Assembly (NCBI RefSeq): GCF_030247195.1
Contig: NC_080670.1
Location: 157,492,580-157,556,579 of the forward strand
DNA from: Topomyia yanbarensis
Taxonomy: Eukaryota; Arthropoda; Insecta; Diptera; Culicidae
Direction of reading: 5' to 3'
DNA length: 64,000 nt
Shown: positions 6,737 to 40,891 of the stretch, piece after piece
Position numbering within the stretch: position 1 is the stretch's first letter
Layout of the letters: each line of letters opens with the position of its first letter
Position numbers and translations under genes: made by a program
The notes under the pieces: model-generated
What the model was told of the DNA's origin: nothing
The model's database searches: none
Seen by the model: the letters and a program-made list of their open reading frames with translations, nothing else

Positions 6737-8074
6737 CCTATTTTAATCCACCTAGCGGTGCAATTGTGCCTTTCTCAATCATGAATCACGAGAATGTGTG
6801 CGTTGTTTATATTCATTAAAAGAGTTCGAGTTCTAAAATTTTGAAAAAAAACAGCCACGGTAATATTGAACTGAAAAAAGGTGCGAAATCGGCAAAGTCC
6901 CAAAAAGTCGATTTTTACAAAAAAAAATTTTTTCGAGATAACATAAAATCTCGACGTTTCATGCATTTTAAAGATGTTTGGCATCAAAAATACGAATTCG
7001 ATTTCTGAAATTTCATGGGGTCCCCCCTTTGAAAAAAAAATTTGAGTTCTGGCTTATATGGGAATTTCATATGTGACCGGACGATTTAGTCTATATTTCC
7101 GGACCCATATAAGCGATCCGTACGAAATTTTATAGACATCTGTGGGGATATTATAGCTATCATTTGGAACTAAGTTTGTGAAAATCGGCCCAACCATTTC
7201 AGGGAAACTGATGTGAGTTCGTAAATTTTGAAAGATGGCCGCTTTTCCCGGGCACTTCCGGAACCGTCTATGGTGGTCAATGTAGTCAACGAAAGTTTGG
7301 TTGGCCGTCGGTGACCTAGAACAGCAAATTTAAGTTGTTTGAGAGACATTTTAGCGAAATTTTTACCTTTTTTGCTTTCATCGGAGTATCGGTTTGAATC
7401 ACAATTTGCTATGTGATCGCACGCCACAACCTGTAACTCCGGAACCGGAAGTCGGATCGGGATGAAATTAAATAGCCATTTACGGGGACGCAATACCTTT
7501 CATTTGAGGCCAAGTTTAGTCGAATCGGTCTAGCCATCTCCGAGAAACCGATGTGACTGTTATTCTGAATTTAGATACTTCCGCCGGGGCTTCCGGAACC
7601 GAGGATGGTGGCCAATGTGGCCAAATAGACTTTGAATGGATGTTAGTGACCTAATACTACAAATCGAATCAGTTGTGGTCATATTTTGGAAATTTTTTCA
7701 CCTTTATACATTCATTGCAGAATTTATTAAAATCGACATTTTCTGCGTGTTCGTACTTATCACCCTGTAATTCCGGAACCGGAAGTCGGATCCATTAGAA
7801 ATTCAATAGCAGCCTATGGGAACGTTGCACCTTTCATTTGAGACTAAGTTTGTCAAAATCGGTTCAGCCATCTCTGAGAAAAATGAGTGACATTTTTGGT
7901 CACATACACACACATACACACACACACATACATACACACATACATACACACACAGACATTTGCCGAACTCGACGAACTGAATCGAATGGTATATGTCACT
8001 CGGCCCTCCGGGCCTCCGTTAAAACGTCGGTTTTCAGAGCAATTGCAATACCTTTCTATTGAGAAAGGCAAAAA
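6737..8074 (+). repeat. Array unit 1 (with complete 5' end)
   Basis: This is the only unit in the tight array with the family's 5' terminus. Its subterminal TGCCTTTCTCAAT (near 6768-6781) is the exact reverse complement of ATTGAGAAAGGCA at the 3' end (about 8059-8071). Three modules begin near 7060, 7400 and 7745. The microsatellite is at about 7904-7955. It is non-coding. Confidence 0.85.
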
Positions 8075-9267
8075 GGTGCGAAATCGGCAAAGTCCCAAAA
8101 AGTCGATTTTTACAAAAAAAAAATTTTTCGAGATAACATAAAATCTCGACGTTTCATGCATTTTAAAGATGTTTGGCATCAAAAATACGAATTCGATTTC
8201 TGAAATTTCATGGGGTCCCCCCTTTGAAAAAAAAATTTGAGTTCTGGCTTATATGGGAATTTCATATGTGACCGGACGATTTAGTCTGTATTTCCGGACC
8301 CATATAAGCGATCCGTACGAAATTTTATAGACATCTGTGGGGATATTATAGCTATCATTTGGAACTAAGTTTGTGAAAATCGGCCCAACCATTTCAGGGA
8401 AACTGATGTGAGTTCGTAAATTTTGAAAGATGGCCGCTTTTCCCGGGCACTTCCGGAACCGTCTATGGTGGTCAATGTAGTCAACGAAAGTTTGGTTGGC
8501 CGTCGGTGACCTAGAACAGCAAATTTAAGTTGTTTGAGAGACATTTTAGCGAAATTTTTACCTTTTTTGCTTTCATCGGAGTATCGGTTTGAATCACAAT
8601 TTGCTATGTGATCGCACGCCACAACCTGTAACTCCGGAACCGGAAGTCGGATCGGGATGAAATTAAATAGCCATTTACGGGGACGCAATACCTTTCATTT
8701 GAGGCCAAGTTTAGTCGAATCGGTCTAGCCATCTCCGAGAAACCGATGTGACTGTTATTCTGAATTTAGATACTTCCGCCGGGGCTTCCGGAACCGAGGA
8801 TGGTGGCCAATGTGGCCAAATAGACTTTGAATGGATGTTAGTGACCTAATACTACAAATCGAAGCAGTAGTGGTCATATTTTGGAAAATTTTTCACCTTT
8901 ATACATTCATTGCAGAATTTATTAAAATCGACATTTTCTGCGTGTTCGTACTTATCACCCTGTAATTCCGGAACCGGAAGTCGGATCCATTAGAAATTCA
9001 ATAGCAGCCTATGGGAACGTTGCACCTTTCATTTGAGACTAAGTTTGTCAAAATCGGTTCAGCCATCTCTGAGAAAAATGAGTGACATTTTTGGTCACAT
9101 ACACACACACATACACACACATACATACACACATACATACACACACAGACATTTGCCGAACTCGACGAACTGAATCGAATGGTATATGTCACTCGGCCCT
9201 CCGGGCCTCCGTTAAAAAGTCGGTTTTCAGAGCAATTGCAATACCTTTCTATTGAGAAAGGCAAAAA
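8075..9267 (+). repeat. Array unit 2
   Basis: A 1193-bp unit nearly identical to unit 1 from 6880 onward, lacking the 5' terminal ~140 bp. It differs from unit 1 by scattered substitutions and a different microsatellite length. Confidence 0.85.
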
Positions 9268-10375
9268 GGTGCGAAATCGGCAAAGTCCCAAAAAGTCGAT
9301 TTTTATAATAAAATTTTTTTCGAGATAACATAAAATCTCGACGTTTCATGCATTTTAAAGATGTTTGGCATCAAAAATACGAATTCGATTTCTGAAATTT
9401 CATGGGGTCCCCCCTTTGAAAAAAAAATTTGAGTTCTGGCTTATATGGGAATTTCATATGTGACCGGACGATTTAGTCTGTATTTCCGGACCCATATAAG
9501 CGATCCGTACGAAATTTTATAGACATCTGTGGGGATATTATAGCTATCATTTGGAACTAAGTTTGTGAAAATCGGCCCAACCATTTCAGGGAAACTGATG
9601 TGAGTTCGTAAATTTTGAAAGATGGCCGCTTTTCCCGGGCACTTCCGGAACCGTCTATGGTGGTTAATGTAGTCAACGAAAGTTTGGTTGGCCGTCGGTG
9701 ACCTAGAACAGCAAATTTAAGTTGTTTGAGAGACATTTTAGCGAAATTTTTACCTTTTTTGCTTTCATCGGAGTATCGATTTGAATCACAATTTGCTATG
9801 TGATCGCACGCCACAACCTGTAACTCCGGAACCGGAAGTCGGATCGGGATGAAATTAAATAGCCATTTACGGGGACGCAATACCTTTCATTTGAGGCCAA
9901 GTTTAGTCGAATCGGTCTAGCCATCTCCGAGAAACCGATGTGACTGTTATTCTGAATTTAGATACTTCCGCCGGGGCTTCCGGAACCGAGGATGGTGGCC
10001 AATGTGGCCAAATAGACTTTGAATGGATGTTAGTGACCTAATACTACAAATCGAATCAGTTGTGGTCATATTTTGGAAAATTTTTCACCTTTATACATTC
10101 ATTGCAGAATTTATTAAAATCGACATTTTCTGCGTGTTCGTACTTATCACCCTGTAATTCCGGAACCGGAAGTCGGATCCATTAGAAATTCAATAGCAGC
10201 CTATGGGAACGTTGCACCTTTCATTTGAGACTAAGTTTGTCAAAATCGGTTCAGCTATCTCTGAGAAAAATGAGTGACATTTTTGGTCACATACACACAC
10301 ACATACACACACACATACATACATACACACATACATACACACACACAGACATTTGCCGAACTCGACGAACTGAAT
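9268..10375 (+). repeat. Array unit 3, left part (split by two insertions)
   Basis: Nearly identical to unit 2 up to CGACGAACTGAAT, where the CR1-like LINE is inserted. The unit resumes as 16 bp at 14805-14820, is interrupted again by the errantivirus, and continues at 22151-22234 (ATATGTCACTCGGCCCTCC...). Removing both insertions restores a unit of about 1.2 kb, which confirms the nesting order and boundaries. Confidence 0.85.
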
Positions 10376-10493: not shown

Positions 10494-12401
10494 TTACGCG
10501 TTAGAATTTCTTTTGTGTATAAAATATTGCTTTAGTTTCAGTTTAGACATTGTAAAATCAATTGAGTCGCAATAGTGATTATAAATAGACATCATTCGAT
10601 TTATGGGGCTATATTTTGCATAGTTTGTGCGAAAAGGAGTTATTGAAAATATACTTCGATTTCGTAGCTGTCGTGAAGGTGCATAAAAGTTCAATTTGGA
10701 TAAAATTTCAGCTGAATCGATACGATGCGAAACGATATTATTAATGAATGAGAGCATTGCAAATTCGCGACGCTCCTTTAATGTTTGAATATTGATAAGC
10801 AAGCAGCGTGCTTCATAAGATGGCAGAGGGAATGCTGTCCATCCTAATTTACGAAGGGCAAATAATAAAAACTGTTTTTGTACCGATTCTATTCGTTCTT
10901 CATGTCTGCTTGAAAAAGGGCACCAAATAATACTGCAATATTCCAATATCGACCTAACATATGCAATATATAATATTTTTATTGTATAAGGATCTTCAAA
11001 ATGATAGCTAAAGCGTTTTATAAAACTGAGCATGTTGTTAGCTTTGTGTATAATTGTGTTATAATGATCAATAAAATTTAACTTTGAATCTAATATAACA
11101 CCTAAATCCCTAATTCTTTCACACTTTACTACAGTCTGATTTCCTAAGGTAATCTCAACATTCGGTGTTTGTCGTTTTCGACTAAAGGTTATTGAATTAC
11201 ACTTTTTCACGTTCAGTTGTAAGAGGCTTTTTTGACACCACATGTGGAAAATTTGTATTTCGTTTTGAAATGTATTAATATCCTCGGCATTTCTTATCTC
11301 CAAATAAAGTTTCATATCGTCTGCATAAATTAGTATTTTCAGTTTTTTGAGAATGAAGGAGATATCGTTCACGTATAAAATAAACAATAGAGGGCCTAAA
11401 TGAGAGCCTTGTGGAACTCCTGAGGTGACTTTAATTGGATTAGATTGCTTTCCTTTAAATTTAATTATTTGCTGACGTTCGGAGAGATATGATTCTAACC
11501 ATGTAAGTAGCCCAGGCTCAATGCCGATCTTTGTCAATTTATAAAGTAACATTGGGATGTCAATGCGATCAAATGCTTTACTAAAGTCTGTATAAAGTGC
11601 CTCCACGTAGTTTCCATTATCCATTGCAATCAGTGTATAATTAATAAATTCTAGTAAGTTTGTTGAGGTCGAACGACCTTTGAAGAAGCCATGCTGGAGG
11701 TTGGAAATTCTGTTTTTTATTTGAACAAATATTTTTTCGTTAATGATTGATTCGAAAAGTTTCGGAATACAGGAGATTATGGCTATCCCACGATAATTAC
11801 GTACGTCAGATTTTTTGCCAGATTTATATATAGGCACTAAAAAAGATTTTTTCCATATTTTAGGGAACTGTCCAGATTGCAAAGACATATTAAACAGCCA
11901 GAACAATGGGGCAGTTAACTCGGTTGCTAGGTTTTTCATAAATAATGGTGGGATTCCATCAGGGCCAGAACCTTTTGATACATCTAAATGTTTTAGAGAA
12001 TTGAAAATGTCTTCGACTATGACATGATTGACACTAATATCCAAAGGAAAATCGGGAAGAAAAGCGAAGTAATCGCGATCACGGTCTTGTTCAGAAAAAG
12101 TCGTATATATTTCTTGGAAGAATGTTGCAAATAGGTTGCAGATTTCTTCCGAGCTATCACGTACGTTGTCATCCAAGTGCATTGTTGATGGGAAATTGTC
12201 TGATTTTAATTTAGTTTTGACGTAGTTGAAAAAATTCTTTGGACAAGATTTGATCTGCTGTTCCGTTTTTGAGTTATAATCCGCAAGTGCAGAATCTATG
12301 GCCATATTTAGTTTATCGCAAATGTCGAAATATTTTTCCAAGTTCTCATTATTCTGGTTTTTCTTATATAGCTTATGGGCTTTTTGCTTCCTATTTTTCA
12401 A
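10494..12401 (-). pseudogene. CR1-like reverse transcriptase (C-terminal part of ORF2)
   Basis: This encodes the RT that primes cDNA synthesis at the nicked target. Visible motifs are SGPDGIP (~145-151), the palm motif FSKAFD (273-278), GVPQGSHLGPLLF (328-340) and the catalytic YADD (359-362), followed by the thumb and a C-terminal region to residue 635. The frame stays open upstream of 12401 only to a TGA near 12419 that replaces an expected tryptophan codon, so the true start is not here. The segment is the C-terminal two-thirds of a broken ORF2 whose N-terminal half is at 12550-13260 in another frame. The RT catalytic core itself looks intact. Confidence 0.85.
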
Positions 12402-12549
12402 ACTCTTAATTTGTCTATTATATCAAACGGGATGCTTCGAGTTGCCGTGGCGTCTTTTTTTCTTAATAGGCACCTCTTCATAAATTATCTTGAAAATAAT
12501 TTTGTAAAATACGTCCACTGCGGTTACAATATTTCCTTCATTTCTAAGG

Positions 12550-13260
12550 CTATTTGCTAGCAGTTTTGTCGAAAATATACTGCAATGTTTCGTTTTCTCC
12601 CACGACTGGGATTAAAATATGTTCGTTTTCAGAGTCCGGAATAAAATCTGCGTTGCGTTGGTTAAAGTCTCCGTAAATGTGAACTTTAACCTCGGCTGGG
12701 AGTTCAGATAAAATTTGTTCAGCAATTTGGAAAAAAGCTTCGTACGATGTTATATTAGCATGCTCTGGTGGGAAATATACAGAGGCAAAAACATGCATTT
12801 CGCCGGCAATGTTTGATTTAACCCACACATGTTCAAATTCTTTAAACTTCACTGTGACTAGAATTTCTGAATTAAATTGAGCCGAAATACCCACAAGAAC
12901 TCCCCCGCCAGACTTCTTTTGAGATTCGTGAAGATTTCGATCGTCTCTGAATACATTAAAGCCACTGCCGAAAATTTCTTCACTTATTACGCTATCGTCC
13001 CAGCTAGTTTCAGTTCCTAATATAACCAAAAATGACGAACCTAATATACGTTTATGAATTTCTGCCATTTTGGCTGGACTTTTCATCCTATTAAAATTTT
13101 GACAATACATTAATAATTCTGTCGCAGTCTTTTTTGTATTGGAAAGTCTACCATCATTATCTAATTCTTGGAAAACACTGTGCTCAACAGCAAACTCGTC
13201 TTTTTCTTCTTCTAAGGAAAGTGTCGAAACTACCGAAAACACGAATGTTGAAAGCGGCAT
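12550..13260 (-). pseudogene. CR1-like APE-type endonuclease (N-terminal part of ORF2)
   Basis: The family nicks target DNA to start target-primed reverse transcription. Residues consistent with the family are visible: a YCQNFNRMKS stretch (~52-61), GTETSW with the catalytic Glu (~82-87), and GDFNQR (197-202). The later catalytic SDH motif is absent because the frame ends after KTASK at 12550. The sequence immediately downstream matches the endonuclease-RT linker, so the C-terminal part of the endonuclease was deleted. The frame overlaps the end of ORF1 by about 30 bases. Not expected to be active. Confidence 0.75.
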
Positions 13261-14609
13261 GCCTCACACTGTGATGATGATGGCGAACATTCCTTATTTA
13301 CTGCATTTAATTGATGCGATGATCTTGATGTATCACGTGCTGGGTAGGGATTCAAAATCTCGCCTCGTGTAAATTGAATCGATGGAATATAATTTGTAGA
13401 TAGGCCGGAAAAACGATCCTTGGCTGCTGCAAGAAGCACTCTATCCGGTGGTAGAAGATTCGTGTTGCAGCTATGATTGGGATGACGGTTTTGGTTATGA
13501 CTGGAGCTACTGGCACGACTAAAGAAGTTGCGATTGGAAAAATTGGCCGGCGGGCCATAATAACGATCGTTTATTGTTGCAGGGGGTCTCCGATCAGGTG
13601 GAAAAATATTGTTGTTGTTGTTGTTTTTAATATTAGTATTCCGGTTTCTAAATATTTGTTTCTTTTTACGCCTTCTAGCCTTATCCGCCTGTTTTTGTTG
13701 ATTCAATCGATTTATTTCTCGCGCATCGTACTCACTCCAGTCAGCTTTCCATACTTTTTTCGTGCCCAAGAAACGCCATCCTGAGTTGATAGCGTTATTT
13801 AGTTCAATTTCCAAACTGGGGCGTGAGTCATTCGGCGATAGCAATTGCGCGGTCTTATTATTCGCATATACATATGCTGACATCGATTTAACCTCGTTGA
13901 GAATTTCTGGCAGCAACGTTGATTCATGTGGCGACCGTAGTTGCCTGGTGCTTTTGTTTTCATTGAGGGCAACTGAGACCGACTTCAACTCGTCGAGAAT
14001 CTCGTATCCTAGGGTGGAATTTGGAGGATTGCTGTTGGCTGTGTCTAAAGACAGCTGACTAAGCTGACTTATTTCCGCGTTCATGTCACGCAAATCAGCG
14101 GATAATTCCGAAGTAACTGTTTTCAACGATTCGTATACACTATCTGATGTTGACTTAATTGCTGTGTCAAGCATAGAGGTAACGTGGTTTTTTATTGCAA
14201 TAACGCTGCCGGCTAGACTACTATTTTTGTTGATTGCAATCAATTCTTGTTTAACAGTAGTGAGAAGTATTTCTAGGCCTTCGAGTGCCTCATGTACTAG
14301 GTCCGGCTTGTTTTGCTGAAATGTTAGTTGATGAATCACTTCAGTATTCTCCCGTATTTGTTTTTCCAGAAGTTTTTGCTGCTCGGCGAGTCCGTTGAAA
14401 GCAATTTTCCCATGTAGTAGTTCCTGACACGAGTCGCAGCATGGCAGTATGTACGAGTTGACATCAACCAATCTCCTGTCCTTTCTCCTTAGTGATCCCC
14501 GCTGCACGGTAACGCCAATGCAAGCTGCATGATACTTCCTTGGGCATTCAACACACGTCCACAGAATCGAATCCGCAGAGGCGTCCAAGGCACAAATTTC
14601 GCAGTTCAT
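13230..14609 (-). CDS. CR1-like ORF1 protein with PHD finger
   Basis: A 459-residue open frame with an ATG start. The N-terminus carries a complete C4HC3 zinc finger of PHD type: C3, C6, C19, C22, H27, C30, C58, C61 (NCEIC, CVEC, KYHAAC, CCDSC). A long coiled-coil-like middle follows (Leu/Ile-rich heptads about residues 75-260), then a basic patch (QADKARRRKKKQ, ~300) and an Asn/Pro/Arg-rich C-terminus. PHD-bearing ORF1 proteins are known in CR1-like LINEs. They presumably bind the element RNA and perhaps chromatin; the chromatin role is inference. Reads without interruption here, unlike ORF2 downstream. Confidence 0.8.
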   Translation of the reverse strand: MNCEICALDASADSILWTCVECPRKYHAACIGVTVQRGSLRRKDRRLVDVNSYILPCCDSCQELLHGKIAFNGLAEQQKLLEKQIRENTEVIHQLTFQQNKPDLVHEALEGLEILLTTVKQELIAINKNSSLAGSVIAIKNHVTSMLDTAIKSTSDSVYESLKTVTSELSADLRDMNAEISQLSQLSLDTANSNPPNSTLGYEILDELKSVSVALNENKSTRQLRSPHESTLLPEILNEVKSMSAYVYANNKTAQLLSPNDSRPSLEIELNNAINSGWRFLGTKKVWKADWSEYDAREINRLNQQKQADKARRRKKKQIFRNRNTNIKNNNNNNIFPPDRRPPATINDRYYGPPANFSNRNFFSRASSSSHNQNRHPNHSCNTNLLPPDRVLLAAAKDRFSGLSTNYIPSIQFTRGEILNPYPARDTSRSSHQLNAVNKECSPSSSQCEACRFQHSCFR

Positions 14610-14820: not shown

Positions 14821-15108
14821 AATAATAATATCAACCCTACATTGGGTGTTTTAAAAAACTATGTTTATTATAAATTCGGAAATCACTGCACTTCACTCGA
14901 ACGTTTCTAATACAAGACTGACTTCTGCTGCTCCTAACACGATCGATTTATTCGATCGTTCTGTCTAGTTTGCAATTTTACGTTGGCCACGTTGTTCAGG
15001 GTCCGAATTGATGACGGTGCCGTTGTGTTGCCATGTGGTGGAAGTGCCCGTGCCATGTGGTAGAACTTGCTGATGCCGCGTGGCGTGTTCGGAGGCTTCC
15101 TTGTAATT
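14821..15108 (-). repeat. 3' LTR of the errantivirus
   Basis: 288 bp, same sequence as 21863-22150. On the element strand it starts AATTACAAGG and ends GATATTATTATT. It contains an Inr-type initiator TCAGTC (14916-14921) and, about 50 bp downstream, AATAAA (14864-14869), giving a U3-R-U5 layout with a short R region. There is no obvious TATA box upstream of the initiator, as in other gypsy-group LTRs. Confidence 0.93.
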
Positions 15109-15134: not shown

Positions 15135-16655
15135 TCACGCGTTGGTGACTTCGTCTGTGTGTATTCCTGATGTGGGTGGCTTTCGATTTTTCCTGCGGGA
15201 CAGCTTGGTTAGAATCCTGTGAATTTCTTGTCTAAAATAGAGAAGGGCAAATGTTGTTAGGGTTAGGCTGAGCGCCGTTGAGATTGAGATTCCGCTAAGC
15301 AGGCTCCAGTTCCAAACATCATGATTGAACTGTTTCAGATGAATGTGATCCAGTAGCTTCCGGTTTTCTAGACTCCTGTTGTCGAGAGTTGTTATGTTGT
15401 GTGTTGGTACCAGTTGTTGTTTTATGACTAGGTCATGCATGGCTCCTTGGAAGACTGATTGTTTAATGGTTATGTTTTGGGATACGAAAATTTCCGTTTT
15501 GAAATGTATTTTGCAGTTCCAGAAGGAAATGATGAAGTTGCCGTTCAACTTCCGATTGGCGGGGCCACAATTTGATATTAGTTCGTTATTTTTTGCGTTG
15601 TTTATGAGAAGTGTGTTATCAGAAACGAGCTTAGCTATTGTTTCATTTTCTGTTTTTGTGTTACATTGACTGTTCACTCCCAAGATGATTGGGTAGATGC
15701 AGTCATCGTTGAATGGTTTGATGAATGTACTTCGTTGAACGTAGTTGTCTGGTTGTGAGGTTGTGTAAAGATTTCTCCGATCTTTGATGATGAATTTTGG
15801 GTAGTCTGTAATGATCGAATTGTTGTTGATTAGCGGGTGAATTTCTAGTACGATGGCTTCCCTTTCTTATAGTTTTGGCACACCCAATATGTATAATAGT
15901 GTGTCCTTATTGAGAGCGATTTTGGGAGTTAGATATGACAGAGCTTGGTCCGGTATTTCGATTTTGACACCCTGTTCTTCTAACATTGTTTTCATAAGAT
16001 GAATTTCCTTTAGGGATAAGACTTTGTTGCTTGGAATTGAAGCTTTTGCGAGAGTTACCGTTTCTAGTATGTTTTCTAGTATTTTGTTGACTGTTTCTAT
16101 GTTGATTATTGTGTTTATGAGTTGAATTTCGTTTAAGATGAGGTTATTGTCGTTTGCATTCTCTATTAGTTTGTTAATAGTTTTTGTGACGTCCTGGATT
16201 CTTTTACCAAGTTGTGTGTTAATCCGAGTCTGTTGATTATTTCCGTCGACTAGTTTATTGAGCGTGTCGTTTATCAGATGAAGGTCTTGGGCGTCCGGGC
16301 TTCCTCCGATCCATTTCCATACTGTTCCTACGGTGTCCCATCTTTTTTGGCGATGTGGCTTAATTTGCAAGAAATTATTGTAGAGTTCCTTAACTTTGTA
16401 TTGAATTATGGTAGATAACTGGGAATTAGTTTTGCTGTATGCTATATTTATCAAACTGTCTATTGTAGTCTCTATATCTGTCAAGTTTATGGGGTGTATA
16501 ACGTTAATAACTCCTGTCTGAATTTTACATTGACCTTTCTCTAATACCAATAACGGTTTTTTGTTAAGGTTAGTTAGTTCTAATTCTTGGCTTTTTATTA
16601 TTGTTAAAATTGTTGTGAAAATTAAAGCTATATGAATTGTTTTGAATTGTCTCAT
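15135..16655 (-). pseudogene. Errantivirus env (fusion glycoprotein), one in-frame stop
   Basis: The envelope protein of insect errantiviruses mediates membrane fusion and is related to baculovirus F proteins. The open frame extends up to 16736, but the likely start is the ATG at 16655, because the splice acceptor at 16718 would remove the earlier ATG. A hydrophobic signal-like segment (IHIALIFTTILTII) follows that start. A furin-type site RQKR lies at residues 129-132 counted from 16736, followed by a hydrophobic stretch. A membrane anchor (LLSGISISTALSLTLTTFAL) and a basic tail are near the C-terminus. A TAA at 15867-15869 divides the frame; both sides are in the same frame with no other stop, so a single nonsense codon truncates Env before its anchor. 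Confidence 0.8.
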
Positions 16656-16715
16656 TTTCCTGACGTTTCGTGTCGAGTGAAGGAGTTTGGGGGATTTTAA
16701 TCTACGGCTTGCGAT

Positions 16716-16735
16716 GGCTGAAACGAGAAATTTCA
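16716..16735 (-). promoter_or_regulatory. Candidate splice acceptor for env mRNA
   Basis: On the element strand TGAAATTTCTCGTTTCAG ends at 16718: a pyrimidine-rich tract followed by CAG, between the end of pol and the first useful env ATG. Combined with the donor at 21655 it would produce the subgenomic env message typical of gypsy-group elements. Not proven from sequence alone. Confidence 0.65.
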
Positions 16736-16838
16736 AAAGTTTTTAGTGTTTATATTCTTTTTTTTTTTGTCTCCGTGTGGTTTGAGGCCCCTTTGGAATC
16801 TGAAAAAGGAAAGTGACAGGTATTATTAGGTGATTAAA

Positions 16839-19800
16839 CTAGTTGTTTTTTCTTAATCTTTTTAGTTTGTTTTTATTGCGCTTAACATTCCTATTAATCT
16901 TTATAGTTTTATCGTGGTTTTCCAAGCATTTTGTAGCTATGTATCTGGGGTCGATTTTCTTCCTAGTGCCCTTTTTAATATGAATGTCGCTGTTTACGTT
17001 AATATTTGGTGGTTCTTCCTTTTTGTGGTTGTATTTTTTCATATTGTTTTGTGCTTTTTCCAAATTGAGGATTATTTTATCGAATAATTTTTGGGCTGCT
17101 TCCGAAATTTCTGCCGGGTTCGTAATGTTTCTCTGATTGAACACTACTTCGTTGGGAGTGAACGAGGTAGCTGAATGTACTGTTTCGTTGTACAATGCGT
17201 TTACAACGGACATGATTTCTAGGGAGGATAGTTCAGGGTATTTGTGTTTATTGGTATTAAACATTTCTATTATAGTACTGTGGGTCTTTTCTATTTGCCC
17301 GTTCGATTCGGATGAGGATGCGAATTCAATATTAATTCCTAAGTTTGCCAGGAAACCTTTAAGCTGAATGCTGGTAAAGGTTGCCTCATGGTCGCACACA
17401 ATAGTTTTTGGTAATCCGAAATTTCTGAAATAGGAAGTCAAGGCGTTTTGAATGTCCGCCGTGTTTCTTGTGGGTATTTCAATTAATTGTAAGTGCTTGG
17501 AAAATGCACATATGAATGTTAGGTAGTTACTTTTGTCCATACCAAAGATGTCCATGTGAACTCTCTGGAAGGGAGATTTTTCGATTGGCCTTGGTGAAAT
17601 TTTAATGTTGTATGGCTTTCGCTCATACTTGTGTTGCGCGCATATGGGGCAAGAATTGTTGAAGGTTCTTATTTTCTTTATCATGTTGGGGAAGTAGTAT
17701 GATCTCTTTATTTGTTTTTCTATTTCTTGAATTCCGCGATGGGCCCTTTCGTGCTCTTTTTTCACGATTGCGTCTTGTCTTTGCTCCGACAGGACGTCTT
17801 CCACCATGTTTTGTGTGAGTACGAAGTGTGAGGGTGAACCTGAAAAGTGTTCTCGGTATACTTCTTGTATGAGTTGTAGAGTGTCTTCGGGGGCGAGGAT
17901 AGCGGTTTGCTTTCCATTATGATATTGTTTGATGGTGTTTGTTATCAAATCTTTGTTAAGATTGTCACTACAAATAATGGTTCGGGTATGATGAGGAAAT
18001 ATTGTCTCATGGATAGTTGTGTTGATTCTGGCGTGTTTAAAAATTATTTGATTTCTGTAGATGTTAATTGGTCGTTCCGTAAAGTGTAGGAAGAAGTCTG
18101 AAGAGGTGTCTGCAGAGTGGACTGTGCTATCATCGGTTTCTGTCATATTGATTTCTACTTTTCTACTCAAGGCGTCAGCGACGACGTTTGTTCTACCTGT
18201 CTTGTATTCTATGGTGTAGTCATAGTTTTCCAGCTCAAGCCTCCATTTCAGTATTTTGGTGTTTTTGTTCGAGGTTTTTATAAATGTTAGTGGTTTGTGG
18301 TCTGTCACTAGTGTGAACTTATGGCCGTATAGGTAAGGTTTAAATTTTTCGGTAGCCCAGATTATGGCAAGGGCTTCTTTTTCAATAGTCGGGTAGTTAA
18401 CTTCATGTTTATTTAGTGTTCTTGAAGCAAATGCTATCGGGTGGTCTTTGTTATCCTGTATTTGCGACAATTCGGCACCTATTGCGTAATTAGAGGCGTC
18501 TGTTGTCAAAATAAAGGGTTTCTCGAAGTCGGGGTAAATTAATATGGGATCTGATGTTAGCATCTTTTTGCATTTGGCGAAGGCTTCAACGTATTCTGGG
18601 TCTTTTGTGTTGAGTATCATTCCTTTTTTTAGGTATTTTGTCATTGGTCTTGCTATTTTTGAAAAATCCATGATAAATTTCCTGTAGTAACTAAGCAGTC
18701 CTAGAAATTGTTTTATCTGTTTTTCGTTCTGTGGCAGAGTCCAGTTGAGAATTTCTTTGATTTTATCTGGGTTTGGCTTAACGCCTTTTTCTGTTATTAT
18801 GTGTCCTAGGAATTCACATTCTTTTCTTAAGAATTCGCACTTATCCACCTGGATTTTCAAATTTGATAGGGTTAGTCTTTCGAGAACTTTTGCAAGATTT
18901 TCTAAATGGTGTTTCAAATTCCTGCCAAACACTATTATGTCGTCTAGGTATACGTAACAAACTCTTCCGATTAGGTCGCCTAGTATTGAGTTCATAGCTC
19001 GTTGAAATGTCGCCGGTGCGTTTTTTAATCCGAACGGCATTCGTAGAAATTCATAATGTCCTTGATCCGTGCTGAAAGCAGTTTTATTTCTTGAACTTTC
19101 GTCGAGTTCAATCTGGTGGAAACCTGATTTTAAATCTAGAGTGGTGAAGTATGTTGCTTTCCCCAAACTGTCGAGTATGTCTTCAATTTGTGGTATGGGG
19201 TGTTTGTCCTCGATCGTTTTATCGTTCAATTTACGATAATCGATGACAACCCTGAATTTCCTTTTCCCAGATGCGTCCAATTTCTTGGGAACTACCCAAA
19301 TTGGTGCGTTCCACGGAGATTCTGAGTGTGTTATGATGCCGTTTTCCAGCATATCTTTGACTTGTTCTTTTACGGTTTCTTTATGAGCGTGGGGGTATCT
19401 GTAGGTTTTTGTATAGACCGGGAGGTCGTCAGTTGTGTTAATTTTATGTTTAATTTTCGTAGTTGCAGTAAGTTTTTCGTTTTCTTTAAGTATTACATCG
19501 CTATGGTTCTTAAGGGTATCTAGTAGTCGGTCTCTTTCGAACTTGGAAAGGTGTTTTGTTCTGATTAGTTCGTCGAATGGGTGTGGTTCCAATTTTTTCA
19601 TATTCGGTTTGTCTGAGAAGAAACTGCGTGTTTCGAAGTTGTTAACTTGTAATTTTAATTCCGGGAATGAGTTCTGTGAGATTGGTTTCTTGTTTGCTCG
19701 AATTACGACTGTGGTTCTATTATTTTTAGCTCTATAGATTCCGGGTTCGATGATTATGTTTTCATTCAATTTTGAAGGTTTAGTTACAAGCCAATCACCG

Positions 19801-20270
19801 TTTTTATCGGTGCCAAGGGTGAGAAAATGATTTTGTTCGGTTCTCGTTGGTTCGATGTTGTATTTATGAACCGGGAATATTGTGTCGCCCACTGTTAGTG
19901 TGAGATTCTGATAATTTAATACGGCGTTGAATTTGGAAAGGGTTTCTGTGCCTATAAGACCATCGAACTCGGGGTGGAAATCTAATTCATATAGGGTAAT
20001 TGGTGGTAATTTTTCACTTAGTACTTTACATTTACCCTTTTTGTTTACTATTCTATTGCCTGTAATGTTTTTAGTGGTGGTAGGTATGATTGTTTTTGTC
20101 TTACTAAGTATGCCAGGCTTCACAATGTTCTTGTTGGCTCCTGAATCAATTAAAAATTTAAAGGTTTGGCCCGTATTTTGTTTGGTGATTACGAGATATG
20201 GTAAAAAATTGTGTGACTTCAGTTGCTTTGTTACGTCTCTGAGTTCTGAGTTGAAATACAACAAAAATTT
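16839..20270 (-). CDS. pol: Errantivirus Pol polyprotein (PR-RT-RH-IN)
   Basis: About 1140 residues, reached from gag by a -1 frameshift at 20264-20270 rather than by its own ATG. Numbering from the TTG at 20264: aspartic protease DSGA (40-43); RT with FRVVIDYRKLN (337-347), TLDLKSGFHQI (375-385) and catalytic YLDD (439-442); RNase H with TTDAS (587-591), the acidic EKEAL helix (~628) and TDHKPL (654-659); integrase with an HHCC zinc domain (H838, H842, C872, C875) and the catalytic triad D905, D958, E992. The C-terminus is Lys/Arg-rich. All catalytic residues are present and the frame is open, so this Pol could be functional. Arrangement and YLDD are typical of the Ty3/gypsy errantivirus clade. 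Confidence 0.93.
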   Translation of the reverse strand, partial: KFLLYFNSELRDVTKQLKSHNFLPYLVITKQNTGQTFKFLIDSGANKNIVKPGILSKTKTIIPTTTKNITGNRIVNKKGKCKVLSEKLPPITLYELDFHPEFDGLIGTETLSKFNAVLNYQNLTLTVGDTIFPVHKYNIEPTRTEQNHFLTLGTDKNGDWLVTKPSKLNENIIIEPGIYRAKNNRTTVVIRANKKPISQNSFPELKLQVNNFETRSFFSDKPNMKKLEPHPFDELIRTKHLSKFERDRLLDTLKNHSDVILKENEKLTATTKIKHKINTTDDLPVYTKTYRYPHAHKETVKEQVKDMLENGIITHSESPWNAPIWVVPKKLDASGKRKFRVVIDYRKLNDKTIEDKHPIPQIEDILDSLGKATYFTTLDLKSGFHQIELDESSRNKTAFSTDQGHYEFLRMPFGLKNAPATFQRAMNSILGDLIGRVCYVYLDDIIVFGRNLKHHLENLAKVLERLTLSNLKIQVDKCEFLRKECEFLGHIITEKGVKPNPDKIKEILNWTLPQNEKQIKQFLGLLSYYRKFIMDFSKIARPMTKYLKKGMILNTKDPEYVEAFAKCKKMLTSDPILIYPDFEKPFILTTDASNYAIGAELSQIQDNKDHPIAFASRTLNKHEVNYPTIEKEALAIIWATEKFKPYLYGHKFTLVTDHKPLTFIKTSNKNTKILKWRLELENYDYTIEYKTGRTNVVADALSRKVEINMTETDDSTVHSADTSSDFFLHFTERPINIYRNQIIFKHARINTTIHETIFPHHTRTIICSDNLNKDLITNTIKQYHNGKQTAILAPEDTLQLIQEVYREHFSGSPSHFVLTQNMVEDVLSEQRQDAIVKKEHERAHRGIQEIEKQIKRSYYFPNMIKKIRTFNNSCPICAQHKYERKPYNIKISPRPIEKSPFQRVHMDIFGMDKSNYLTFICAFSKHLQLIEIPTRNTADIQNALTSYFRNFGLPKTIVCDHEATFTSIQLKGFLANLGINIEFASSSESNGQIEKTHSTIIEMFNTNKHKYPELSSLEIMSVVNALYNETVHSATSFTPNEVVFNQRNITNPAEISEAAQKLFDKIILNLEKAQNNMKKYNHKKEEPPNINVNSDIHIKKGTRKKIDPRYIATKCLENHDKTIKINRNVKRNKNKLKRLRKNN

Positions 20271-21466
20271 TCTTCCGTTTCGCTTTGCTCACTTTCCGTA
20301 TCTCCATCGGAAATTTCGTTATTATTTATTTGTTTGTTCAGTGTCAATTTGCTTCGTATTGAGGAATCGACGTCCATTGGCTCGGTTTTAAATTTTTGTT
20401 GAGATGGTTCGAATTTGGGTTGATTGAACTTGTGCCGGTTTGGTTTGACTTCGTCGTTCCGGTTTTTTAAATTTTTATTGAAGTTGCTGTTTTCTCCAGA
20501 TGGACTGTATTTAGCATATTGTTTCTGTTTATCGTATTTTTCTTCGACTGTTATTTTACGGGTAGTTTCATTGGAGGTGAATTTGCAAAGAAATGCGTAA
20601 GCTTGTTCGATATCTTTAGGACCGTTTGCCTGGACATAGCCGAAGTAGGGTTTTTGTAGGCCACTAATAAATGCTGCCAGGCTGTATTCGTCTATAAATG
20701 AATTTATGGCGTCCCAATTGGAGTTGTATTTTGTATTTTGTTTTGCGATCGATTTTATATTCTGTATTAATTGTTTGGTTTTCTGGTAATATTGATTAAC
20801 ATTACCATCCATTTTTGTATGCCAGAGTTGACAGTTGTATGTGGATAATTCTTGTTTGTCGCCTAGGCAGGCGTTTAGAATTTCCTTAATTTCAGTGAAG
20901 GTTGTAGGGCTTCCGTTTGTACACAAGATGTCCCTTGCTTCACCTTCAATTTTATTTGCCACTGCTGTGACGTACATTTGGAATATAGGTGGACTCACTA
21001 AGGGTTCAAATACACTCAAAGTTTTTTCTGCTGTCTCCAGCCAGCTGTTTAATTGTTTTTTGCTCCCTTTAAATGCGGGTAGCATTTTGATTGGGTCAGG
21101 TATCTTGAACGGATCACCTGACGTAGTTAAGTATTGTGGTGATTGCGGCGTCGGCATAAATTGTCCGGCACTCGCGCTGCTATTAATTTTTGCTTGTATA
21201 GCACCTAAGAATGTTTCTTGCTGTTGTTGCCTGTTACTAATTTGTTTTAGTGCAGCTAAGATATCATCCATGGTGGGGTGATCAACGGGTTGATCATTAG
21301 TGTTGTTGAGCGACATAATGTTTGTCAGCTCGTCAATTTTTCTTTGGTCGATGGGAACGTGTGAATGTCCTCCGGACTCGATGGAATCGATAGATTCTTC
21401 TGAAGAGCTCAAATTCCTGCTGCACAGAAATTTGTTTTGCCTTGCGTCTTTCAGTGTTTTTGGCAT
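20231..21466 (-). CDS. gag: Errantivirus Gag
   Basis: A 411-residue structural protein that would form the capsid around genomic RNA. It starts at an ATG (MPKTLKDARQNK) 15 bp downstream of the leader stem-loops. The central part (~110-290) has the helical capsid-like layout, including TFTEIKEILNACLG. The C-terminal third is basic (KPNRHKFNQPKFEPSQQKFK) and then acidic (DGDTESEQSETEE). There is no CCHC zinc knuckle, which is normal for gypsy-group errantiviruses; RNA binding probably uses the basic region. It ends at a TAA (20231-20233) after ENFCCISTQNSET and overlaps pol by about 30 bases. Confidence 0.88.
   Translation of the reverse strand: MPKTLKDARQNKFLCSRNLSSSEESIDSIESGGHSHVPIDQRKIDELTNIMSLNNTNDQPVDHPTMDDILAALKQISNRQQQQETFLGAIQAKINSSASAGQFMPTPQSPQYLTTSGDPFKIPDPIKMLPAFKGSKKQLNSWLETAEKTLSVFEPLVSPPIFQMYVTAVANKIEGEARDILCTNGSPTTFTEIKEILNACLGDKQELSTYNCQLWHTKMDGNVNQYYQKTKQLIQNIKSIAKQNTKYNSNWDAINSFIDEYSLAAFISGLQKPYFGYVQANGPKDIEQAYAFLCKFTSNETTRKITVEEKYDKQKQYAKYSPSGENSNFNKNLKNRNDEVKPNRHKFNQPKFEPSQQKFKTEPMDVDSSIRSKLTLNKQINNNEISDGDTESEQSETEENFCCISTQNSET
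20264..20270 (-). promoter_or_regulatory. -1 ribosomal frameshift site between gag and pol
   Basis: On the element strand the heptamer A AAT TTT lies in the gag frame (GAA AAT TTT TGT). It fits X XXY YYZ exactly. Slipping back one base leads into the open pol frame (TTG TTG TAT TTC). The gag and pol frames differ by -1 and overlap only here, supporting its use. I could not evaluate a downstream pseudoknot. Confidence 0.8.
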
Positions 21467-21480
21467 TCGTTAATTTCAAA

Positions 21481-21609
21481 GAACGACACCTATCTAGTAG
21501 TGTGTTGTTCGAATTAGCGCCTATCTGGTAGTACGCCAATTAGAAGATCGTCTATTTAGTAGTGCGATCTTCTGGTTGGATGAGCGCCTATCTGGTAGTA
21601 CGCTGATCC
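21481..21609 (-). promoter_or_regulatory. Four tandem stem-loops in the errantivirus leader
   Basis: Stem-loops at 21481-21510, 21512-21541, 21542-21573 and 21578-21609. On the RNA (minus) strand each apical part reads CTA-CYARA-TAG (CCAGA, CTAAA, CCAGA, CTAGA loops closed by CTA/TAG). The lower stems have different sequences but stay complementary: AGAAGATCG/CGATCTTCT (perfect 9 bp), GGATCAGCG/CGCTCATCC (8 of 9), AATTGGCG/CGCTAATT (8 bp with one G-U), GAACAACAC/GTGTCGTTC (8 of 9). They lie between the splice donor (21655) and the gag ATG (21466), so only unspliced genomic RNA carries them. A packaging or dimerisation signal is the natural inference; control of gag translation is an alternative. 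Confidence 0.75.
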
Positions 21610-21649
21610 GAAATGAGTAATGTTTTTCTTTGAAATTAAAAAAAAACTC

Positions 21650-21660
21650 ACTCACCTGTC
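21650..21660 (-). promoter_or_regulatory. Candidate major splice donor
   Basis: On the element strand GACAG|GTGAGT, with the intron starting at 21655, is a near-perfect donor. It is located after the primer site and before the stem-loops and gag. The exon upstream (21656-21862) holds no ATG, so a spliced message would initiate in env. Confidence 0.7.
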
Positions 21661-21849
21661 GTGGTGTAGGTAGCTGAAGAACGCTGGTGGTGCTCCACGT
21701 GTTTATCGGCGGGGGATCCTCGAATCACTCTGGCGGCTGTTGCCTTCAGCCAGCGATGCTAAGTTTTATTTTAGCGGGTATCACTGTTTTTCACTTTGTT
21801 AGGATGAAAGTCCACTGTTTTTCCGATAAATCACTTCTTCACTTCCTAA

Positions 21850-21863
21850 TACCGGCTGCGCCA
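21850..21863 (-). other. Primer binding site, tRNA-Ser-like
   Basis: The + strand reads TACCGGCTGCGCCA, which looks like the 3' end of a tRNA (…CGGCTGCG plus CCA). The element strand therefore has TGGCGCAGCCGGTA directly after the 5' LTR. This is close to the tRNA-Ser primer known for the 17.6/297 errantiviruses. Confidence 0.75.
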
Positions 21864-22150
21864 ATAATAATATCAACCCTACATTGGGTGTTTTAAAAAA
21901 CTATGTTTATTATAAATTCGGAAATCACTGCACTTCACTCGAACGTTTCTAATACAAGACTGACTTCTGCTGCTCCTAACACGATCGATTTATTCGATCG
22001 TTCTGTCTAGTTTGCAATTTTACGTTGGCCACGTTGTTCAGGGTCCGAATTGATGACGGTGCCGTTGTGTTGCCATGTGGTGGAAGTGCCCGTGCCATGT
22101 GGTAGAACTTGCTGATGCCGCGTGGCGTGTTCGGAGGCTTCCTTGTAATT
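21863..22150 (-). repeat. 5' LTR of the errantivirus
   Basis: 288 bp, identical by eye to 14821-15108. It contains the initiator TCAGTC (21958-21963) and AATAAA (21906-21911). It would drive the genomic RNA running toward lower coordinates. Confidence 0.93.
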
Positions 22151-23430
22151 ATATGTCACTCGGCCCTCCGGGCCTCCGTTAAAAAGTCGGTTTTCAGAGC
22201 AATTGCAATACCTTTCTATTGAGAAAGGCAAAAAGGTGCGAAATCGGCAAAGTCCCAAAAAGTCGATTTTTATAAAAAAAAATTTTTTCGAGATAACATA
22301 AAATCTCGACGTTTCATGCATTTTAAAGATGTTTGGCATCAAAAATACGAATTCGATTTCTGAAATTTCATGAGGTCCCCCCTTTGAAAAAAAAATTGAG
22401 TTCCGGCTTATATGGGAATTTCATATGTGACCGGACGGTTTAGTCTATATTTCCGGAACCATATAAGCGATCCGTACGAAATTTTATAGACATCTATGGG
22501 GATATTATAGCTATCATTTGGGACTAAGTTTGTGAAAATTGGCCCAACCATTTCCGGGAAACTGATGTGAGTTCGTAAATTTTGAAAGATGGCCGCTTTT
22601 CCCGGGCACTTCCGGAACCGTCTATGGTGGTTAATGTAGTCAACGAAAGTTTGGTTGGCCGTCGGTGACCTAGAACAGCAAATTTAAGTTGTTTGAGAGA
22701 CATTTTAGCGAAATTTTTACCTTTTTTGCTTTCATCGGAGTATCGGTTTGAATCACAATTTGCTATGTGATCGCACGCCACAACCTGTAACTCCGGAACC
22801 GGAAGTCGGATCGGGATGAAATTAAATAGCCATTTACGGGGACGCAATACCTTTCATTTGAGGCCAAGTTTAGTCGAATCGGTCTAGCCATCTCCGAGAA
22901 ACCGATGTGACTGTTATTCTGAATTTAGATACTTCCGCCGGGGCTTCCGGAACCGAGGATGGTGGCCAATGTGGCCAAATAGACTTTGAATGGATGTTAG
23001 TGACCTAATACTACAAATCGAAGCAGTTGTGGTCATATTTTGGAAAATTTTTCACCTTTATACATTCATTGCAGAATTTATTAAAATCGACATTTTCTGC
23101 GTGTTCGTACTTATCACCCTGTAATTCCGGAACCGGAAGTCGGATCCATTAGAAATTCAATAGCAGCCTATGAGAACGTTGCACCTTTCATTTGAGACTA
23201 AGTTTGTCAAAATCGGTTCAGCCATCTCTGAGAAAAATGAGTGACATTTTTGGTCACATACACACACACATACACACACACATACATACATACACACATA
23301 CATACACACACAGACATTTGCCGAACTCGACGAACTGAATCGAATGGTATATGTCACTCGGCCCTCCGGGCCTCCGTTAAAAAGTCGGTTTTCAGAGCAA
23401 TTGCAATACCTTTCTATTGAGAAAGGCAAA
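22151..23430 (+). repeat. End of array unit 3 and complete unit 4
   Basis: 22151-22234 completes the split unit, including the hairpin CCTTTCTATTGAGAAAGG. The next unit begins at 22235 with GGTGCGAAATCGG and ends at 23430 after its own microsatellite, GGCCCTCCGGGCC block and hairpin. It is slightly more diverged from units 1-3 (for example GAGGTCC for GGGGTCC near 22372). Confidence 0.85.
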
Positions 23431-23880
23431 AATTATGAATATGGGTTAAGAATTTTATGAGGAATAGGTGTGAAAGTAACTGTGAACATTGGCAAGCTCT
23501 CCTGGGGTCAAGACCGTCCTAGGTGGCGAATGTGATCAAAACGGCAAATTTATGTAATTCAACACCTGTTTTAATAGGTTTTTCATCATCTAGGTATCAT
23601 AGTGGTTCCAGTTTATATGGAGATTTACTGTATTACCGCCCTTCTTATCCACTAACTCCGGAACCCGATGTAGTATCAGAAATAAATTCAATAGCAACCT
23701 ATGTCTCATTTGCGACCAAGTTTGAGAAAATCGATTCGGTTATCTTCGAGTAACCGATGCGCTTGTTGGTAACATACATACACACATACACTCGTAAGCA
23801 CACACACATTTTCCGAACTCAAGGAATTGAGTCGAACGTGTGAGATGAAGATTTAATCATCTAGTCTCTTACCCCTCGCT
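23431..23880 (+). repeat. Diverged array unit (one module)
   Basis: Joined directly to the end of the preceding unit. It retains a module (CTAACTCCGGAACCCGATG, then AAATTCAATAGCAACCTATG, then GAGAAAATCGATTCGG), a CA-rich microsatellite (about 23770-23810) and CCGAACTCAAGGAATTGAGT. The 3' hairpin is not recognisable. Confidence 0.65.
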
Positions 23881-35888: not shown

Positions 35889-36656
35889 TTAAAGTTGGAT
35901 ATTGATGGTTTTTATGAAGGTGTATATAAGGGACATATAGAGGACATCGCGGCTTGCCAACACATCTCGAACCGGGACGTTGGGTGGTCTTCCTCGGGCC
36001 CGGAGGGTGTCCATAAGCCGAGACCTGGCGGAACTGTACTCGGTGCACGCCCAGACTATGTGCTCTATATCGTGATAACCGTCGCCACAAGCGCAGATAC
36101 CACTCTCCACGAGCCCAATACGTCGGAGATGTGCATCCAGCGTGTAATGGTTCGCCATGAGTCGGGACATCACACGAATGAAGTCACGACCCACATCCAT
36201 CCCCTTGAACCAAGGTTTCGTCGATACCTTAGGGACTATCGAATGTAGCCACCTTCCTAGCTCCCCATTGCTCCACGAGGTTTGCCAACTTTCGAGGGTT
36301 CTCTGATGAGTAATACTGAAAAATTCGTGGAAGCAAATTGGTCTTTCAAAAACGTCACCTTCAATGGCACCCACCTTAGCTAAGGAGTCCGCCTTCTCAT
36401 TGCCCGGAATGGAGCAATGAGAAGGGACCCACACCAAGGTAATCTGGAAAGATTTGTCAGATAAAGCACTCAGTAGCTCCCGTATTTTCCCCAAAAAACA
36501 CGAGGAATGCTTTCCATGTTTCATCGAGCGAATAGCGTCAATAGAACTCAGACTATCCGAGACGATGAAGTAATGGTCTGCGGGTAATGTGTCAATGACT
36601 CCAAGGGTATACTGAATAGCAGCTAGTTCTGCGGCGTAAACTGAAGCAGGGTCACA
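35889..36656 (-). pseudogene. RNase H and C-terminal domain of I-like ORF2 (shifted frame)
   Basis: Continues ORF2 after a frameshift near 36656. RNase H features: the acidic YAAELAAIQYTL, SDSLSS with the catalytic Asp, and NEKADSLAK. The first motif (YTDGS) is on the other side of the shift. After RNase H comes a Cys/His cluster CACGDGYHDIEHIVWAC found at the end of many LINE proteins. RNase H removes the RNA strand during cDNA synthesis. A one-base difference (an extra C or the loss of two bases in ACAAACTGTGACC) accounts for the break. Confidence 0.8.
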
Positions 36657-39573: not shown

Positions 39574-40891
39574 CGAGGGATACAATCGCTGAAAGGAGGG
39601 GCCATTTAGCAGTCAACTGCTTCAAAAATGTTCTTACTGTAGGGAGAAAAGCTAACATAAGACTTTTAATAGGATCAGTTATATTGAAAGTTTTTATTAT
39701 CCAGTCCACAATGTCCGAGAGTTTGATAATTCCAGTGCCGCGATTATTCTCGAACTGAAACAGAGGAACACTTGGGATTTTTGATGTTCCGGGAAGTGCT
39801 GGGAACTCCTTCTCTGAGTTTAATCCTCCGAGACCAGGAGCTAATTGCTTCGGTTTGGTTGCAACACTTCCAATAGATGTGACTTTCTGAGTCCCGTCAA
39901 GGGATACCTTCTGGCCTTTACAACGAACTTTAGGAGAGGAAATGTTCCTCCTCTTCCTATAACTTCTAGGCGCCCTAGTAGATGTTCCCTCTTGTGGGTC
40001 ATCAGCCTCGCCCTCGTTAGGAGGCAAGTGAGCATAGATGTTTGTTGAGGTTGGTGGTGTAGCTTTCTTTAGCATTTCTGCAAAAGAACGTTCGGATCGT
40101 CCAGCAAGGGAACGTTTTAGTTTATCCCCGCGTAGTTTGTACGCGGGACATGCCGAGATATCATGCAGATTCTCTGCACAGTAAGGACACTTCTCAGCAT
40201 TCTTACTGCACGAATCATCTAGATGATTCTCCCCGCATTTTCCACAGCGGGCCTTATTGCTACAATGGGTGGCTGTGTGACCCAATTGTTTACACTTTGT
40301 GCAATTCATGACCCGCGGCACAAACAGACGCACAGGCAGACGAACCTTGTGCAAGAGGACGTAATTTGGCAAAGCGGTACCAGCGAAGGTCAACCGATAA
40401 GAGTTTGATTGGGGGTACGTTTTTGAACCATCCCCCGCAACTACTACTGAGTGCAAACGCTTGCACTCGAGTATTTTCACTGGCTGAAGTAAGCGGTCTC
40501 TGAAACGGCCAACCCCGTACTGCAGCAGATCCTCGCATGTCAAACTGTCATCGGTGACAACGCCTTCAGACTGTACTTTCACAGCTGGAATATACACGTG
40601 ATAGTCCTTCGTAAAGTGCTCGCAGCAAGCAATATCGTTTGCCTGCTTTGAGTTAGTCAGCACGACCCTCAGCCTGTCTGAGCGGACCTTTTTTATTTCG
40701 ATCACAGCCGAGAACCGTTCCGTCAGGTCTTTTGAAATCTGTAATAGATTCAGCGATTTTGTTTTGGGCCGAAAGAAGACCACAAAGGGACCGGTCGAGA
40801 GCTCTGGATATTGTTTGGGTCGGGGGAGAGCCTTAGGAGTCGACTCGATCTCCATTTGGCCATCCGGGGAGGAAGCCATCGACACCGTCAA
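39566..40891 (-). CDS. I-like LINE ORF1 (gag-like, three zinc knuckles)
   Basis: A 441-residue open frame. The N-terminal half has an RNA-binding fold-like region (FVVFFRPKTKSLNLLQISKD; RLRVVLTNSKQAND). It is followed by three CCHC knuckles: CTKCKQLGHTATHC (197-210), CGKCGENHLDDSC (216-228) and CPYCAENLHDISAC (235-248). A basic Ser/Pro-rich tail comes after (RSYRKRRNISSPKVRCK). The protein packages element RNA. It reads without interruption; the upstream in-frame ATG at the 5' end of the frame is accepted as start, though a second Met (M5) is possible. Confidence 0.85.
   Translation of the reverse strand: MTVSMASSPDGQMEIESTPKALPRPKQYPELSTGPFVVFFRPKTKSLNLLQISKDLTERFSAVIEIKKVRSDRLRVVLTNSKQANDIACCEHFTKDYHVYIPAVKVQSEGVVTDDSLTCEDLLQYGVGRFRDRLLQPVKILECKRLHSVVVAGDGSKTYPQSNSYRLTFAGTALPNYVLLHKVRLPVRLFVPRVMNCTKCKQLGHTATHCSNKARCGKCGENHLDDSCSKNAEKCPYCAENLHDISACPAYKLRGDKLKRSLAGRSERSFAEMLKKATPPTSTNIYAHLPPNEGEADDPQEGTSTRAPRSYRKRRNISSPKVRCKGQKVSLDGTQKVTSIGSVATKPKQLAPGLGGLNSEKEFPALPGTSKIPSVPLFQFENNRGTGIIKLSDIVDWIIKTFNITDPIKSLMLAFLPTVRTFLKQLTAKWPLLSAIVSLDG

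Follow-up and report, generated by a model that had tools for sequence, protein, structure and literature searches.

We found that the leader of an errantivirus element carries, just ahead of gag, four tandem hairpins with a shared tip, and that hairpins of this kind occur before gag in several related element families of the same genome. Since the tip is the same, the stems differ and yet match, and the place is common to several related families, the array is a strong candidate for the packaging signal of the RNA of such elements. We regard it as very probable that a conserved functional cis-element exists in the errantivirus leader, and we lean towards the narrower reading that it is a cis-acting RNA element of the genomic RNA, recognised by Gag for packaging. 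Throughout, the window is the whole stretch of 64 kb that was analysed.

The element and its four hairpins

The element and its genes lie in the window as follows.

22150 to 14821, minus strand: errantivirus element
21863 to 22150, minus strand: 5' LTR of 288 nt, 100% identical to the 3' LTR
21850 to 21863, minus strand: primer binding site TGGCGCAGCCGGTA, read from the sequence, which we take to be of the tRNA-Ser type
20231 to 21466, minus strand: gag (411 aa), with its ATG at 21466, 14 nt past the last hairpin
16839 to 20264, minus strand: pol, with RT, RNase H and integrase domain matches
15867 to 16736, minus strand: env reading frame, matching PF07253 over profile positions 11-234 of 472
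14821 to 15108, minus strand: 3' LTR of 288 nt

The assignment to the errantiviruses made in the original prediction was borne out by the LTRs, the internal gag, the pol domains and an env of the PF07253 type, and Pitica errantivirus and Anopheles atroparvus entries are among the named relatives in the databases. The insertion is young, as judged by the identity of the LTR pair. The env gene appears interrupted, given the partial PF07253 match and a further ORF (15135-15683), downstream of the env frame, for which no Pfam match was found. The Gag of the window has no CCHC knuckle and carries a basic stretch within its C-terminal part; among the 120 listed of 141 Gag relatives, the CCHC pattern was found in none, and 114 had a net charge of at least +6 over a 60-aa stretch in the C-terminal 40%. 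We also looked for leader remnants in N-terminally extended Gag proteins, and discarded this idea because LPDR stood near the start of only one of 120 relatives, which we judged to be chance.

The hairpins, all on the minus strand, were located exactly where they had been predicted (21481-21609).

21578 to 21609, minus strand: HP1, lower stem, 5' bulged A, CUA/UAG upper stem, loop CCAGA
21542 to 21573, minus strand: HP2, lower stem, CA/A internal loop, CUA/UAG upper stem, loop CUAAA
21512 to 21541, minus strand: HP3, lower stem, 5' bulged A, CUA/UAG upper stem, loop CCAGA
21481 to 21510, minus strand: HP4, lower stem, 5' bulged A, CUA/UAG upper stem, loop CUAGA

Common to all four are an unpaired A on the 5' side, the CUA/UAG upper stem and a CYARA pentaloop, so that the apex CTA-CYARA-TAG holds letter by letter in the form first quoted. 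In the alignment the A lies directly below the upper stem in every hairpin, as a bulge in HP1, HP3 and HP4 and within the CA/A internal loop in HP2. The motif CTACYARATAG occurs four times in the 64 kb, always in the array, against a mean of 0.10 in 100 shuffles. When the region 21470-21660 (191 nt) was folded on the minus strand, the first check that had been proposed, all four stems were part of the minimum free energy (MFE) structure (-59.6 kcal/mol; z -7.65; 0/200 shuffles), with apex pair probabilities of 0.69-0.92, and they formed as well in folds of the whole leader, of LTR plus leader and of leader plus gag start. The lowest z-score (-6.0) among 111 segments of 130 nt covering the element, each compared with 40 shuffles, was that of 21501-21630. 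Rfam 15 gave no match in the 64-kb window, and its best score for leader plus LTR was 17.4 bits against a cut-off of 70.

The lower stems had been said to differ in sequence and to remain paired. This held in the main: upon swapping 3' arms among HP1-HP4, the native set was the best of 24 (-39.0 kcal/mol, the next being -31.1), and any exchange cost at least 7.9 kcal/mol in total. Pairing is not perfect, however, as there is a C.C mismatch in HP1 and an A.C mismatch in HP4. Changes on both sides were seen in 6 of 13 pairs, a poor discriminator that 20 of 500 shuffles reach; the nine cells changed on both sides were reached by 1/500 shuffles, and the covariation score by none of 500. Because four related copies are few, the covariation evidence from the window taken alone is only suggestive.

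Hairpins in other families of the same genome

All comparisons were made within a single genome (1.168 Gb, 1044 contigs, including contigs of 218, 470 and 429 Mb). The family of the window, named F1, gave 23 leader matches including the window's own, 95-100% identical. The differences among these copies were mostly private, and their stem changes broke 21 pairs and kept 8; such mostly pair-breaking changes fit decay after insertion, and the F1 copies thus give no within-family support for pairing. Other families (F2-F6) were sought with Gag, and since this search scored 101 of 703 candidates the family list is incomplete. Among the 42 leaders scanned, 14 carried hairpins of type A, 12 of type B and 16 neither. 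Type A comprises CUAC-N-AGA-UAG hairpins before gag with the same preceding A, found outside F1 in F3, F4 and F5. Type B comprises YUC-YNAR-GAR hairpins, loosely similar in plan, found in F2 and F6.

F3, type A: one hairpin at each of nine loci, the same in all
F4, type A: three hairpins in L073 and L092
F5, type A: four hairpins in L076, three in L078 and two in L098 (at the edge of the retrieved piece)
F2, type B: L059-L061, L063-L067, L072, L082 and L086, mostly with four hairpins downstream and one upstream of the donor-like site; one of the four downstream hairpins has the loop UAAGC
F6, type B: five hairpins in L074

By tblastn, run with the F1, F2 and F3 gag frames, the Gag of the window showed 39-46% identity over long matches to F2, F3, F4, F5 and F6; its identity to a second F5 copy was 53% (205 residues). 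A model built from the window only (R1) matched other families at E values of 2e-9 to 8e-5 (best 15 of 23 listed matches). The leaders of the family representatives align only over 12-26 nt around the apices and over a block before the donor-like site, and across single copies this block extends to 58-99 nt at 78-81% (F3 or F5 against L092, L078 and others).

21681 to 21721, minus strand: second leader block, GGATCCCCC ... TGGAGCACC, next to the donor-like site on its upstream side; common to F1, F3 and F5

This second block contains a GGATCC palindrome, and the F4 copy L092 also aligns there with F3 and F5.

We aligned 14 gap-free type A hairpins from F1, F3, F4 and F5, the four of the window included, leaving out L078, L092, L098, L069, L079, L080, L081, L083 and L084 as repeats or degraded copies and keeping three F3 rows that are near identical. 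In this alignment 85.7% of the 182 cells were paired (shuffles, 61.0, sd 2.7), 50 cells were changed on both sides (shuffles, 21.8, sd 3.5) and the covariation score was 0.644 (shuffles, 0.214), each value being reached by 0/500 shuffles. When partners were slid by 1-3 columns, at most 44.6% of the cells paired. Further pair types numbered 27 against 21.5 (6/500 shuffles), and the count of pairs with any both-side change did not discriminate (379/500). The shuffles take no account of relatedness, and three of the rows nearly repeat one another; more weight should therefore go to how large the effect is than to the zero counts. Selection on pairing, which had been claimed for the four hairpins of the window, is supported by a covariation score unmatched in 500 shuffles both there and over the 14 hairpins. 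The A below the upper stem was present in 14/14 rows although it was outside the search pattern; the constancy of the apex is in part by construction, the apex being the search key.

A screen that left the apex free (loop sizes 4-7, 20 leaders) recovered apices that recur with a 5-nt loop in F1 (4), F4 (3), F5 (4), F6 (4) and F2 (2), with 0/60 shuffles each; of the remaining 14 leaders, L097 and L101 showed TA repeats, and L090 had a pair with loops of 6 nt (1/60 shuffles). Shuffling the arms of 22 hairpins with the apex fixed gave a combined p of 2.5e-12, five of the 22 being weak (native energy reached by 183, 77, 85, 61 and 56 of 500 arm shuffles). The second F5 hairpin was outside the MFE structure and folded otherwise both alone and within its leader. 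Apart from this one, the type A representatives had a clean 5' bulge (6/12) or a small internal loop (5/12), and those of type B a clean 2-nt 5' bulge (4/10) or small internal loops; type B folding often adds a U-A pair that closes the loop to a triloop. We propose a common plan for types A and B, a loose one in view of the proportion of clean bulges in either type. A test of upper-stem covariation between the types (0/500 shuffles) was set aside, as the hairpins had been chosen by a pattern that favours pairing, the 15 apices were a subset and one row was one base off.

Hairpins with covarying stems, which had been named in advance as support, are kept in several families but not in all. No array was found in L077 (Gag 48% over residues 114-399), where only 21 nt separate the donor-like site from the gag ATG, nor in eight leaders of distant families (L087-L091, L093-L095). 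In L070, an F3 copy, a long TA repeat stands in place of the hairpin. As to the other leaders with neither type, L085 is without that stretch, L096 and L097 end before the hairpin region, and L099-L101 match no family; L102 and L103 were outside the analysis. Leaders lacking the hairpins, changes that break pairing and folds in which the stems do not form had been named as grounds for giving up the reading; we looked for all three, and the reading stood.

Pairing by itself cannot separate a sense RNA from an antisense RNA or from DNA. G.U and A.C combinations were equal in the lower stems (14 and 14), with no strand asymmetry, a result that counts against our reading, and the antisense fold was the more stable one in four of six families. 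As sense and antisense pair about equally, we assign the strand on position and biology, not on energetics.

Position in the leader and proposed function

Three features frame the array within the predicted transcript.

21650 to 21658, minus strand: predicted 5' splice site CAG/GTGAGT, last exon base 21656, first intron base 21655
21612 to 21656, minus strand: 19-bp hairpin burying the donor-like site (-15.9 kcal/mol; z -5.4; 0/1000 shuffles)
16800 to 16822, minus strand: acceptor-like site, in which a tract with 17 pyrimidines in 20 positions (16803-16822) leads to a CAG whose last base is 16800; a second possible CAG closes at 16718

Reading on from either acceptor-like site by eye, one meets the first ATG at 16655, in the env frame. 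The hairpins lie where they had been placed, between a (predicted) donor and the gag ATG, inside the predicted env intron. GTRAGT was found upstream in one representative of each of the six families, and 21 of the 22 representative hairpins lie between the donor-like site and the gag start, the exception being the upstream hairpin of F2. The donor hexamer was predicted to be paired in 6/6 representatives (mean unpaired 0-0.17, among the lowest 0-17% of 6-nt segments), the 9-nt donor site being less marked (lowest 8-39%). The buried site at 21612-21656 might also serve in the control of env splicing. Regarding what defines a psi-type signal, the structured leader element is present, and its confinement to unspliced RNA is predicted from donor-like sites only. 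In excerpts from one source, the packaging determinants of HIV-1 and MLV are mainly downstream of the major donor and those of RSV and HIV-2 upstream (PMC5086612), and for this reason position is weak evidence for packaging.

On the packaging reading, the element would comprise between one and five hairpins. Every hairpin would have a lower stem that varies, unpaired bases (in type A, an A) on the 5' side right beneath the upper stem, an upper stem of three base pairs and a Y-N-A-R-A pentaloop. A single protein would read the tips, most probably Gag, which has no zinc knuckle in its basic C-terminal part. Several adjacent sites could allow Gag to load cooperatively on unspliced RNA only, and such loading would lead to packaging of the genomic RNA and not of the env mRNA. 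Bound just ahead of its own start codon, Gag could also slow gag translation as packaging starts, while the hairpin masking the donor would spare part of the RNA from splicing. There is close to an even chance, in our estimate, that types A and B descend from an old genome-recognition code of errantiviruses (unpaired bases, three upper pairs, YNARA, up to five copies, a knuckle-less Gag as reader) in which one lineage swapped CUA/UAG for YUC/GAR and kept the loop. If true, this swap would show an RNA signal and its reader changing together, and the array would become the first packaging element to be defined in errantiviruses. Being short, repeated and covarying, with a tip that stays the same, the hairpin poses a direct binding question, and the genomes of other insects can be searched for its signature.

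The hairpins could instead bind a host protein that keeps unspliced RNA from splicing or exports it from the nucleus, as constitutive transport elements do in simple retroviruses. Their place just inside the predicted env intron, beside a donor-like site whose GTRAGT is predicted to be paired in six representatives, agrees with such a role, but export elements of the MPMV type sit near the 3' end and use internal loops rather than repeated hairpin tips. We hold this reading unlikely, even if the export signal of gypsy is, like its psi element, given as unknown in part of a 2014 review (PMC4276936). A control of gag translation by an attenuator, shunt or internal entry, with packaging unaffected, seems less likely still. 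HP4 ends 14 nt ahead of the gag ATG, the leader (396 nt from LTR to gag) is free of ATG (as are 1.35% of 2000 shuffles), and gypsy is reported to carry IRESs (PMC4276936, in part). On the other side, the distance from the last apex to the gag ATG varies among families (23 nt in F1, 34 in F6, 35 in F5, 53 in F2 and 124 in F3), the segment from donor-like site to gag contains ATGs in F4 (1), F5 (1) and F6 (5), and a simple structural block would have no need of a shared tip.

The apex is also a repeated DNA motif of 12 bp and the pairing is strand-symmetric, which would suit tandem sites for a chromatin or transcription factor. The insulator in the 5' leader of gypsy is a parallel, a repeat array in an errantivirus leader, with 12 Su(Hw) repeats in the 5'UTR according to part of the same review (PMC4276936). 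The gypsy repeats, unlike ours, are DNA sites, and lower stems of 8-10 bp that differ and covary are needless for a binding site. As for Su(Hw), the only factor covered, its consensus was absent with up to two mismatches from 20616-22837, which includes leader and 5' LTR, and we consider a DNA-level element rather improbable. A dimer-initiation or RNA-localisation signal is the least probable of these readings. In retroviruses dimer linkage and packaging often overlap, and the CUAG of some loops is self-complementary; the loops CCAGA, CUAAA, CAAGA and UGAGA are not, so that kissing is not a shared property.

Known systems and neighbouring sequences

MLV and its relatives have a pair of GACG hairpins in psi, and the MLV Gag has a zinc knuckle. 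There as in the window, neighbouring leader hairpins share a loop; the packaging determinants of MLV lie mainly downstream of the splice donor (excerpts from PMC5086612). The present system differs in its YNARA pentaloop, in its 3-bp upper stem with unpaired bases below, in its number of copies (up to five) and in a Gag without knuckle; no GACG tetraloop was found in HP1-HP4, whose loops are CCAGA, CUAAA, CCAGA and CUAGA. The order of HIV-1, with the donor in a hairpin (SL2), then the psi hairpin (SL3) and then gag, resembles that of the window, but SL3 is single, with a GGAG loop, whereas the window has four repeats. The coat-protein operator hairpin of MS2, which serves translation control and packaging, likewise lies near a start codon and has a 5' bulged A, separated by a few pairs from a small loop in which A's are conserved. 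Its loop is of 4 nt with two pairs above the bulge, however, and of the type A hairpins only one half show a clean bulge; we do not suggest common descent.

Among open-licence papers on errantivirus packaging and stem-loops, the listed titles and starts of abstracts disclosed no described equivalent of these hairpins, and excerpts from a further source give the packaging elements of Ty1 and Ty3 as not clearly defined (PMC4974528). In viral contigs the apex-pair pattern was found in nine stretches, none matching the hairpin model. With pol as query, viral contigs yielded no relative and microbial assemblies yielded five contigs of distant retroelements, likewise without a match to the model.

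Some further features of the window were noted in passing. Within the element, the second lowest folding z-score (-4.6) fell in the gag interior, at 21046-21175. Repeats with a period of about 1.19 kb flank the errantivirus on both sides (7484-10343 and 22150-23485), and resemble a tandem array invaded by a reverse-transcriptase element (ORFs within 10494-14609) and by the errantivirus. The ORF at 13230-14609, with a weak PHD-finger match below the cut-off, adjoins the RT ORF at 10494-12401 and perhaps belongs to a non-LTR element. Finally, the ORFs at 35889-40891, with endonuclease, RT and RNase H domains, probably represent a non-LTR retrotransposon.
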